A program made the position numbers and the translations under genes. The notes under the pieces are model-generated. The model saw only the letters and a program-made list of their open reading frames with translations. It searched no databases and was not told the DNA's origin. From positions 8,233,244 to 8,297,243 of the forward strand of contig VZDJ01000346.1 of the NCBI GenBank assembly GCA_008694505.1: a DNA stretch of 64,000 nucleotides. The letters run 5' to 3'. Positions 53,920 through 60,196 of the stretch are shown in pieces. Source of the DNA: Cyanoderma ruficeps (Eukaryota > Chordata > Aves > Passeriformes > Timaliidae). Position 1 is the stretch's first letter; each line of letters starts with the position of its first letter.

Positions 53920-54042
53920 GTAAAAATGTCTGCAAATCAGTCAACCATGGCTGTGAGCATGTTTGTGTTAATGCTGACAATTCCTACATCTGCAAGTGTC
54001 ATGAGGGATTTGTACTGAGAGAAGATGGCAAGACCTGCAGAA
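53920..54042 (+). CDS. MATN2: MATN2 EGF8 exon (first K-[DN]-x-C type)
   Basis: The exon is 123 nt, phase 1-1, with acceptor TATTCCCAG and donor AGAA|GTGAGT. It encodes RKNVCKSVNHGC, CVNADNSYICKC and FVLREDGKTC. This is the first of twelve modules of the type that ends the mammalian EGF array. KN instead of KD at the start is shared only with EGF17, suggesting common descent of these two. Confidence 0.94.
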
Positions 54043-54208
54043 GTGAGTGACTGGTATCTATTGAACACTTTTGCATGTACATCAGGCAAGGAAGGGAAGT
54101 GTGTTGCTTCTTTTCTTACTGGAAAAGAAGCAACAAACTTCCTTTTGTTAGCTACATTTCTCTGACATGTTTTCGTTCAAAACCTACATTTATATTAATC
54201 ATTCCCAG

Positions 54209-54331
54209 GACAGGACATCTGCAAATCAGTCAGCCATGGCTGTGAGCATATTTGTGTTAATGAAGATGACTCCTATGTTTGCAAGTGTCATGAGGGTTTT
54301 CTGTTGAGGGAAGATGGGAAAACATGCAGAA
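54209..54331 (+). CDS. MATN2: MATN2 EGF9 exon
   Basis: The exon is 123 nt, phase 1-1, with acceptor CATTCCCAG and donor AGAA|GTAAGT, only 166 bp after EGF8. It encodes RQDICKSVSHGC, CVNEDDSYVCKC and FLLREDGKTC. The Q at the second position is unique in the array. Its upstream intron end (TTAATCATTCCCAG) resembles that of EGF8 (TTAAATTATTCCCAG), as expected for exon-plus-intron duplication. Confidence 0.94.
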
Positions 54332-54741
54332 GTAAGTCTCTGAGAATTACTCATAGAATTTTATTTACAGTATGTAGATCTGAGAATCATTCAAACCAAT
54401 ACAACAATTTACTGTTGTAATAAAGGAGTAAACTTCATATGTATAATACAGGAGTAGTATTTATATATTTATACATTTAGACCTTCCAAATGCTTGTAAG
54501 CAACTCTGTGGACAAAAGCAGTATCTTTTAATAGGTCAGCTGACAGACTGGAAACAGAAAATACTTCAGAAACAGAAAATACTACCTGAACAAAAATGTT
54601 CAGGTACCAAGAGTTAAAAGTGTTTGCTGCCTAAAATGTAAGCTGTTTATTCCAGTGGTATCAGTAGACCTAATGGAAGCTGTTACTTCTCCTTGCATGA
54701 TACATTTGCTGTAGATGTGCTTTAACCAAATATGTTCTCAG
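54332..54741 (+). other. MATN2: Intron between EGF9 and EGF10
   Basis: This 410 bp intron is AT-rich and contains a near-direct repeat 'cagaaaatact' around 54555-54585. No exon is seen. Confidence 0.6.
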
Positions 54742-54864
54742 ATAAAGATATCTGCAGTTCAGTTCACCATGGCTGTGAACATGTTTGTGTTAATGCTGAT
54801 GAGTCCTACATCTGCCAGTGTTATGAGGGATTTGCACTAAGGGAGGATGGAAGAACGTGTAGAA
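54742..54864 (+). CDS. MATN2: MATN2 EGF10 exon
   Basis: The exon is 123 nt, phase 1-1, with acceptor GTTCTCAG and donor AGAA|GTAAGT. It encodes NKDICSSVHHGC, CVNADESYICQC and FALREDGRTC. C-S-S and G-R-T-C are private changes. The V-H-H-G-C echoes the last mammalian EGF. All six cysteines and the hydroxylation Asn are present. Confidence 0.94.
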
Positions 54865-54952
54865 GTAAGTGTCTTTCTCTTTAGTAGATTTTCTTTATAA
54901 TCTGCACATTTGTAGATATATTTTAAATACGGTAATTTTATTTTTTTAACAG

Positions 54953-55075
54953 ATAAAGATGTTTGCAATTCTGTGGACCATGGCTGTGAGCATATTTGTG
55001 TGAATACTGATAGTTCATACCTTTGCCAGTGCTATGAGGGTTTTGTATTGAGGGAAGATAAGAAAACATGTAGAA
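54953..55075 (+). CDS. MATN2: MATN2 EGF11 exon
   Basis: The exon is 123 nt, phase 1-1, with acceptor TTTTTAACAG and donor AGAA|GTAAGT. The preceding intron is only 88 bp, the shortest in the gene. It encodes NKDVCNSVDHGC, CVNTDSSYLCQC and FVLREDKKTC. The C-N-S-V-D start is shared with EGF15 and EGF16. The usual D-G-K near the end is D-K-K. Confidence 0.94.
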
Positions 55076-55297
55076 GTAAGTTATTTTAATGTTACTATAT
55101 TTTTATATTCAAATATCTACAGAAGAAACATATTATTTAGAGGCAGTTCTTATAGGAGATTTTTCCTTGCAGAAAGGAGAATAAATTCTAAAGATTGCTA
55201 AATTTAAAAATCTAAAGATTGCTACTGTTAGTCTTTAAAGTTTTGGAAATGCTCTTATTCATCAAACTGTAGTAAATAAAATTTAAATTATTCCTAG

Positions 55298-55420
55298 ATA
55301 AAGACATCTGCAAATCAGTCAGTCATGGCTGTGAACATCTTTGTGTTAATAATGATGATTCATACACTTGCCAGTGCCATGATGGATTTATACTAAGGCA
55401 AGATGGGAAAACATGCCGAA
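55298..55420 (+). CDS. MATN2: MATN2 EGF12 exon
   Basis: The exon is 123 nt, phase 1-1, with acceptor TATTCCTAG and donor CGAA|GTAAGT. It encodes NKDICKSVSHGC, CVNNDDSYTCQC and FILRQDGKTC. L-R-Q-D is shared only with EGF18. It closes the first dense EGF cluster. Confidence 0.94.
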
Positions 55421-58904: not shown

Positions 58905-59027
58905 ACAAGGACATTTGCAACTCAGTTGACCATGGCTGTGAACAAGTTTGTGTGAATACTGAAGACTCTTACATCTGCCAGTGTAATGAAAAATTCATAC
59001 TGAAGGAAGATGGAAAGACATGTAGAT
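58905..59027 (+). CDS. MATN2: MATN2 EGF15 exon
   Basis: The exon is 123 nt, phase 1-1, with acceptor GTTTGCAG and donor AGAT|GTGAGT, 93 bp after EGF14. It encodes NKDICNSVDHGC, CVNTEDSYICQC and FILKEDGKTC. The conserved Gly after the fifth cysteine is replaced (NEKF instead of xEGF). The last exon base is T rather than the usual A, so the junction codon with EGF16 is Tyr. Confidence 0.93.
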
Positions 59028-59195
59028 GTGAGTAGCCTGAGCTATAAAAGTGTGTTTTTATTTGAGGCTTTCAAGTGTTGTGGGTGTGAGTGCACTTGTG
59101 TATGTTTGTAATTTCCAACTATTTGGGCTGGTTAGAAAAAGAAACCATCTCTCCCTAACAAGCCTCACCTCACAAACCCCATCCACTTTTCTCAG

Positions 59196-59318
59196 ATAGA
59201 GATGTCTGCAACTCAGTCGACCACCACTGTGAACATATTTGTGTTAATACTGATGATTCCTATGTCTGCAAGTGTCATGAAGACTTCATACTGAGGGAAG
59301 ATGGGAAAACTTGCAGGA
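59196..59318 (+). CDS. MATN2: MATN2 EGF16 exon
   Basis: The exon is 123 nt, phase 1-1, with acceptor TTTTCTCAG and donor AGGA|GTAAGT. It encodes YRDVCNSVDHHC, CVNTDDSYVCKC and FILREDGKTC. The normally invariant HGC is HHC, and the Gly after the fifth cysteine is Asp (HEDF). It resembles EGF15 and EGF11 at its start. All six cysteines are present. Confidence 0.93.
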
Positions 59319-59525
59319 GTAAGTTATTTAATCTTTGTTTTGTACTTCCTGATGTGCTAATGGAACACACTATGCAATAGTAATGTGTTATTTGTGTCTT
59401 TATTATAGAATCAGCTTCATGTAAGTGAGATCCTTCATAGAAAATCATAGCAAATTTTTTTTATATTTTGTGAATTTTTTTTTTACTTAGCTAACTGTGC
59501 TAAATACAATTTTCATTATTCCAAG

Positions 59526-59648
59526 GTAAAAATGTCTGCAAAACAGTCCCCCATGGTTGTGAACATGTCTGTGTTCCAACTAGCGATTCATACACGTGTC
59601 AGTGTCATGAGGGATTTATACTGAGGCGAGATGGGAAAACATGCAGGA
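59526..59648 (+). CDS. MATN2: MATN2 EGF17 exon
   Basis: The exon is 123 nt, phase 1-1, with a weaker acceptor TATTCCAAG (A at -3) and donor AGGA|GTGAGT. It encodes SKNVCKTVPHGC, CVPTSDSYTCQC and FILRRDGKTC. The Asn of the C-V-N hydroxylation pattern is Pro, so that site is lost. K-N-V-C and the exon start GTAAAAATGTCTGCAAA are shared with EGF8. Confidence 0.93.
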
Positions 59649-59785
59649 GTGAGTAGCTGAAACTTTTATGGGGAATATGGTTTCAGTCTTAAAAGAAAAA
59701 ACAGACAATTTCACTCAAAGCTTGTTCATGACAGTTTTGTATTTGAAAAATGGTCTAATAAGGGGATTCTCTTAACAATTCTCAG

Positions 59786-59908
59786 ACAAAGACCTGTGTA
59801 AATCCATTGACCATGGCTGTGAACATGTGTGCATTAATAATAACAACTCATACAGCTGTCAGTGCCATGAGGGCTTTGTCCTGCGACAAGATGGGAAAAC
59901 ATGTCGAA
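59786..59908 (+). CDS. MATN2: MATN2 EGF18 exon
   Basis: The exon is 123 nt, phase 1-1, with acceptor AATTCTCAG and donor CGAA|GTAAGT. It encodes NKDLCKSIDHGC, CINNNNSYSCQC and FVLRQDGKTC. N-N-S forms an N-glycosylation sequon in this loop, which I see in no other module. L-R-Q-D is shared with EGF12. Confidence 0.94.
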
Positions 59909-60073
59909 GTAAGTAACTCATTATGTCTGTCAGCCCCTCTTCTCTGGCATTGCTACATAAATGAGCAAAGATGTTGCACTGCTTTGTCATATGTTCTCCA
60001 GATACCATGTCTGGAGTCTTTGGATTTTTAAAATGTTAAATAGAATACAGATAAATACTTTAATTTTTCCTAG

Positions 60074-60196
60074 GTAAAGATGTCTGTAAATCAGTTGACC
60101 ATGGTTGTGAATATGCTTGTGTTAATAACGCCGATTCCTATATCTGCAAATGCCAGGAGGGATATGTACTAAAAGAGGATCAGAAAACATGCAGAA
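60074..60196 (+). CDS. MATN2: MATN2 EGF19 exon (last EGF)
   Basis: The exon is 123 nt, phase 1-1, with acceptor TTTTCCTAG and donor AGAA|GTAAGT. It encodes SKDVCKSVDHGC, CEYACVNNADSYICKC and YVLKEDQKTC. C-V-N-N and S-Y-I-C-K-C match the last mammalian EGF, so this is probably the orthologue of mammalian EGF10. It is followed by the vWA2 exon, as in other MATN2 genes. Confidence 0.94.

Follow-up and report, generated by a model that had tools for sequence, protein, structure and literature searches.

Twelve frame-neutral EGF exons in the tail of a bird MATN2 array, likely optional cassettes for arm length

The FNIII repeats of tenascin-C are an alternatively spliced array encoded by symmetric repeat exons. 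Matrilin-2 is described as a protein with ten EGF modules, and matrilin vWA domains are described as binding matrix ligands while the coiled coil forms oligomers (both PMC6271824). In most placental mammals compared only two of the EGF modules are of the type studied here, which we call tail modules. The present analysis concerns the MATN2 gene in a 64,000-nucleotide stretch (the window) from the passerine bird Cyanoderma ruficeps (contig VZDJ01000346.1, positions 8,233,244 to 8,297,243), where the gene lies on the + strand and two vWA domains flank the EGF array. On balance we favour the view that the tail of the bird array consists of twelve frame-neutral 123-nt exons, much of it older than modern birds, which are likely optional cassettes setting the length of the arm.

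The EGF array between the two vWA domains

EGF cores were found by a six-frame scan and then by a stricter scan of the + strand, which gave 19 cores between vWA1 and vWA2, all with a length of 108 nt from C1 to C6. Each core lies inside a 123-nt unit of phase 1-1 whose AG acceptor precedes C1 by 11 nt, and in 18 of the 19 units a GT donor stands 4 nt after C6. In the tail (53920-60196) every one of the twelve modules combines six cysteines and an open frame with an AG acceptor and a GT donor, and the claim of an earlier sequence-only reading of this DNA that they look functional is borne out. Joined in frame, vWA1, the 19 modules and vWA2 give 1106 residues with no stop. The profile PF14670 exceeds its cut-off in each of the six tail modules that were scanned one by one (8, 10, 11, 13, 18 and 19), and a genome-wide search with it, in which 150 of 644 candidates were scored, recovered all twelve tail modules and 18 of the 19 array modules, on C211.

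The features of the gene are listed below. EGF1 to EGF4, EGF6 and EGF7 were placed by core scan and splice sites (EGF4 also by Pfam scan), module 5 by splice sites, Pfam and bird records, and the tail modules by core scan, splice sites and bird counterparts.

14926..15051, +, MATN2 signal-peptide exon (tblastn extent, queries P0001, P0003, P0005; the Ficedula match reaches 14830)
29449..30018, +, vWA1 exon, donor phase 1 (PF00092, 186 bits; splice sites)
34071..34193, +, EGF1 exon
37810..37932, +, EGF2 exon
43448..43570, +, EGF3 exon
46716..46838, +, EGF4 exon
48257..48379, +, EGF5 relic (module 5), probable dead exon, donor AT in place of GT
50700..50822, +, EGF6 exon
52952..53074, +, EGF7 exon
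53920..54042, +, tail module 8 (KNVC)
54209..54331, +, tail module 9 (QDIC)
54742..54864, +, tail module 10 (KDIC)
54953..55075, +, tail module 11 (KDVC)
55298..55420, +, tail module 12 (KDIC)
58472..58594, +, tail module 13 (KDIC)
58689..58811, +, tail module 14 (KDLC)
58905..59027, +, tail module 15 (KDIC)
59196..59318, +, tail module 16 (RDVC)
59526..59648, +, tail module 17 (KNVC)
59786..59908, +, tail module 18 (KDLC)
60074..60196, +, tail module 19 (KDVC), adjoins vWA2
62159..62572, +, vWA2 first exon (PF00092, 140.6 bits; tblastn; splice sites), the remainder lying past the window

The tail had been described as twelve K-[DN]-x-C modules; the number stands, while the motif itself is present in ten, modules 9 (QDIC) and 16 (RDVC) being the exceptions. 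The introns within the tail measure 88-410 nt, except for one of 3.05 kb (55421-58471) which separates the first five tail modules from the last seven; those after EGF1-7 measure 0.8-5.5 kb. A profile of 257 modules found no further EGF or relic module above 5 bits on either strand between 29 and 64 kb, the 3.05-kb intron that separates modules 12 and 13 included. An N-glycosylation sequon (NNS) occurs in module 18 (59786-59908) only, among the 19 modules.

The sequence-only reading had counted nineteen phase 1-1 exons of 123 nt, arranged as seven plus twelve. Nineteen units are indeed present, with the positions and the order stated there, and the tail of twelve remains, but module 5 has no GT donor and is apparently dead, and because of this the usable modules look to be 18, better described as six plus twelve with one relic. 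That the first seven correspond to mammalian EGF1-7 holds by position, although identity alone does not separate the Pongo modules 3-5. The net gain compared to mammals is eight modules or about 328 residues if all twelve tail modules are used, and not the roughly 400 residues first estimated, since the balance has to include EGF5, now lost, and the LD-type EGF8 of mammals.

The assignment of the gene to MATN2 is confirmed by the domain order, with a PF00092 match on both sides of the 19 EGF units, and by tblastn of the downstream exons. On the same contig, at window-relative positions 65009-70209, tblastn located the second part of vWA2, the unique segment and the first exon of the C-terminal coiled coil; the last short coil exon was not located by tblastn downstream of the window. 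With 18 usable modules and one relic the gene departs from the count of ten EGF modules, but the assignment is kept because matrilin-2-named records of other species also vary in EGF number (8-14 by pattern count). The matrilin minor intron sits in the coiled-coil region, and a minor-class ATATCCTTT donor was found directly 3′ of the coil exon (L005 6211-6219), while the acceptor of this intron was not located. Minor introns are present in all four matrilin genes according to PMC6865273, and their AT-AC type is named in the title of a reference within it. Elsewhere in the genome four PF14670 matches in 1.2 kb (G000:C125:2608143-2609312) make up a second compact group of EGF modules, perhaps a further matrilin gene.

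Counterparts in other birds and the decay of EGF5

In a protein search restricted to vertebrate records 147 proteins were compared (the best 120 of 1500, followed by 15 and 12 not listed before). For 69 bird records the modules of 40 residues were matched to the 19 window modules, leaving out modules of unusual length in five records, and the ages given here are deduced from annotated proteins. The order of the best matches is strictly that of the window in 68 of the 69 bird records; the exception is Pezoporus, where one module is tied (80/80, % identity) between 15 and 16. Ordered counterparts occur in emu, quail, duck, falcon, crane, parrot, barbet and passerine records, and every one of the twelve tail modules has a best-matching counterpart in non-passerine birds. 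Tail modules 8-11 and 17-19 are present in the emu record; the quail and duck records jointly cover 8-13 and 17-19, with module 14 marginal, and Eudromia has a marginal counterpart of 13. Assignments with a margin below 5 points include modules 8 and 10 of emu, 13 of duck and 14 of quail. Among the bird records only those of Neoaves showed modules 15 and 16.

Palaeognath and neognath records have at least seven tail modules in common, Galloanserae and Neoaves nine, and we infer that the crown-bird ancestor had at least seven of them and the neognath ancestor nine. Because seven tail modules occur in the emu record, much of the tail is apparently older than modern birds. The array had been thought possibly lineage-specific, which the ordered counterparts across birds including emu contradict. 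A structure shared by all sauropsids had been named as the sign of an old array; this applies to birds, whose modules are shared in order, and in part to turtles, crocodilians and lizards, whose tails are extended as well but do not match the window modules one-to-one. In a maximum-likelihood tree of 257 modules most window modules group with their bird counterparts. Modules 8, 11, 12 and 18 stand near crocodilian or turtle modules, at the low resolution which such short modules give, and on account of this grouping some tail duplications may be older than birds.

The development of EGF5 (48257-48379) is a different one. Its donor reads ATGAGT instead of GT, it scores 18 bits compared to a PF14670 cut-off of 33.4, and it is the only one of the 19 modules missing from the genome-wide PF14670 matches. 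The minor-class donor consensus is ATATCC; an AT-AC minor intron was considered for EGF5 and rejected, as ATGAGT does not fit this consensus and the next acceptor is a plain AG. For the comparison among birds seven of the 69 records, which have no clear EGF4 or EGF6, were left out. In ten of the remaining 62 EGF4 is joined directly to EGF6 (Pogoniulus, Pezoporus, Ficedula, Callipepla, Dromaius, Falco, Oxyura, Melospiza, Amazona and Phaethon), four carry an insert other than EGF5 (unrelated in Sylvietta, Urocolius and Ceyx, a second EGF4-like copy in Thryothorus), and 48 carry an EGF5 remnant. Within these 48 records the six cysteines are in register in 48 cases for EGF4, in 47 for EGF6 and in 19 for EGF5, and identity to the window has a median of 95%, 95% and 77.5%, respectively.

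The remnant ends with N-E in 23 of the 48 records, and because the broken donor of the window, if read through as AAT GAG, would encode just these residues, we infer that the birds in question share it. All six non-bird records examined (Gavialis, Crocodylus, Caretta, Pelodiscus, Anolis and Pongo) retain an EGF5 with all six cysteines; the decay is therefore placed in birds, where EGF5 is probably a dead exon. As the emu skips EGF5 and the remnant of the tinamou (Eudromia) is degraded, the comparison suggests a loss early in birds.

Subsets of tail modules and rival explanations

All twelve tail exons are 123 nt long and of phase 1-1, as in an array of cassettes with symmetric phases. The 69 bird records show 24 different tail subsets, each with at most nine of the twelve modules. 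Annotated records of the same species differ by whole tail modules in all eight reptiles or birds chosen from those with several records per species (Gavialis, Chelonoidis, Gopherus, Dermochelys, Sceloporus, Chrysemys, Pelodiscus and Buteo); Mauremys reevesii and M. mutica, being two species, and Sphenodon with two records were left out, and in pig no tail difference was seen among four records. One of the three Buteo records has a tail set without any overlap with the other two. The Sceloporus undulatus isoforms X4 (P0069) and X3 (P0070) are of equal length with one tail module swapped for another, as would be expected of mutually exclusive cassettes. We read the splicing of the tail from these annotated proteins, and the tail exons are likely spliced as cassettes which set the arm length. 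The longer arm between the vWA heads proposed by the sequence-only reading is plausible, but likely variable, given that each bird record has nine tail modules at most.

The twelve phase-matched exons are interchangeable in frame; according to this reading different transcripts would include different subsets, and the choice of subset would fix how long the arm between the vWA heads is. Since matrix ligands are bound by the vWA domains and oligomers are formed through the coiled coil (PMC6271824), additional modules would place the vWA1 head further out and alter the spacing of ligand-binding heads in the oligomer. A more far-reaching form, in which matrilin-2 would be a length-programmable adaptor with twelve combinatorially spliced cassettes, most of them older than modern birds, tissues would set the head spacing and EGF5 would have been discarded at the root of birds, is put forward only tentatively.

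The serious rival is a fixed long arm combined with poor annotation: all twelve tail exons would always be included, the arm would have 18 modules, and the subsets in the databases would be annotation errors. We regard this as possible rather than probable. The intact sites, frames and cysteines of the twelve exons are in its favour, as is the fact that replacement sites have diverged much less between the copies than synonymous sites. Furthermore, 44 of the 69 bird records have the same three-module subset (10, 13, 19) regardless of bird order, which resembles projection, and similar tandem exons are in general hard for aligners. We take this shared subset to be a projection from one template, though it could be a real common isoform. 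However, whole tail modules distinguish the named isoforms of a single species (for example Gavialis X4/X6, Chelonoidis X5/X6/X7, Dermochelys X6/X7, Sceloporus X3/X4), and none of the 147 listed proteins has more than nine tail modules.

Several of these observations, and some others, weigh against the cassette reading itself. The identical set in 44 records may mean that gene models fail at chaining similar exons, and the twelve modules together are unseen among the 147 proteins. In splice-site strength the tail falls little short of EGF1-4, 6 and 7, with 6-7 donor consensus letters of 9 compared to 5-8, and 9-13 acceptor pyrimidines of 17 compared to 10-15. Regarding the age of the modules, the low-resolution tree sets the quail "14" apart from window module 14, puts window module 8 with turtle and gharial modules before other birds, and joins window modules 15 and 16 to lizard modules; its support for the age is weak.

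A recent amplification limited to C. ruficeps or close kin would agree with the absence of a complete tail from the listed proteins and with the restriction of modules 15 and 16 to Neoaves. The counterparts in the same order across neognaths and emu speak strongly against it, and so do the nearly saturated synonymous sites between tail copies (median dS 1.36 over 66 pairs, 12 of them saturated, with a median dN of 0.17). No clear similarity was found among 45 pairs of the ten introns below 1 kb, trimmed by 6 nt on the donor side and 20 nt on the acceptor side; the best pair (z 2.6) was matched by 5 of 200 shuffles, which is unremarkable over 45 tests. This explanation, which we consider very improbable, was rejected. 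Pairwise nucleotide identity between the tail exons is 67-84% (mean 75%), while the 60-nt flanks are on average 34% and 31% identical on the two sides, with 62% (upstream) in the highest single pair. Since the exons are alike while their flanks have diverged, and dN is low compared to dS, the pattern fits old copies under constraint at the protein level. Signs in favour of a recent amplification are one 33-nt match (82% identity, E 0.006) just upstream of exons 12 and 17, the upstream pair with 62% identity and the best intron pair. A block duplication was also considered, as gapped genome matches span two modules and their intron (for example 10-11 compared to 13-14), but is not claimed, for want of an intron signal in that pair. 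False duplication in the assembly is disfavoured because the introns are dissimilar and synonymous sites are near saturation, and the dissimilar flanks of exons which share 67-84% identity speak against it as well. An 801-base piece of the array gave ten matches in the whole assembly, all on C211 and consisting of itself and other MATN2 modules, the 3-kb intron (3031 bases searched) is present once, and the same module order is found in records from other assemblies. An artefact is thus hardly tenable.

It had also been proposed that the expansion changes a calcium-dependent stiffness, and as a rival explanation it would mainly tune the stiffness of the arm, as in the calcium-binding EGF arrays of fibrillin. 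Calcium-binding EGF modules have ligand residues at -4 and -1 before C1, with E or Q at -1. None of the 19 modules has E/Q at -1, six have D/N at -4, and by these residues the modules do not belong to the calcium-binding EGF family (EGF_CA, PF07645). Some features do agree with the proposal: the Asp/Asn hydroxylation consensus fits 17 of the 19 modules, and of six tail modules scanned with EGF_CA (cut-off 27) three pass by less than 2 bits (28.6, 28.4 and 27.6; the others reach 26.1, 25.7 and 21.2), EGF4 scoring 29.6. The best Pfam match of all six is nevertheless FXa_inhibition. The stiffness change is therefore unsupported, and as the main role of the expansion we hold it to be quite unlikely. 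A hen-uterus expression study labels MATN2 as a calcium-binding EGF protein (PMC3999959), a label which gains no support from the ligand residues of the window modules.

Comparison with known systems

The MATN2 family is known, and extended tails are visible in databases. Among the literature matches listed (titles and abstract openings, with most subscription journals outside the search) none dealt with an expansion of the EGF number in bird or reptile MATN2, and neither the full bird array nor its ordered conservation nor the decayed EGF5 was found in the literature searched. The bird MATN2 array is likely splice-variable and under-annotated, which suggests that the annotation of bird and reptile MATN2, and the calcium roles inferred from it, merit revisiting. 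An eighteen-module MATN2 would be a natural test of how EGF number affects reach and oligomer geometry in a matrix adaptor.

Like tenascin-C, MATN2 encodes a matrix protein with phase-matched repeat exons which can be skipped without loss of frame, although the repeated domain is another one and the splicing of MATN2 is read from annotation only. Closer to the window are annotated sauropsid MATN2 proteins (Callipepla P0006, Pogoniulus P0001, Caretta P0002 and Anolis P0008), with tails of 6-9 modules and 14 EGF modules in total each. The bird tails correspond to the window module for module, whereas those of turtle and lizard have no one-to-one match, and all twelve modules are present in none of these proteins. 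Mammalian matrilin-2 (Pongo abelii P0097) shares with the window the order of vWA1, EGF array, vWA2, unique segment and coiled coil, EGF1-7 by position, and a module of the tail type adjoining vWA2. It differs in its ten EGF modules, of which EGF8 is LD-type and two are KD-type, where the window has twelve tail modules and a decayed EGF5.

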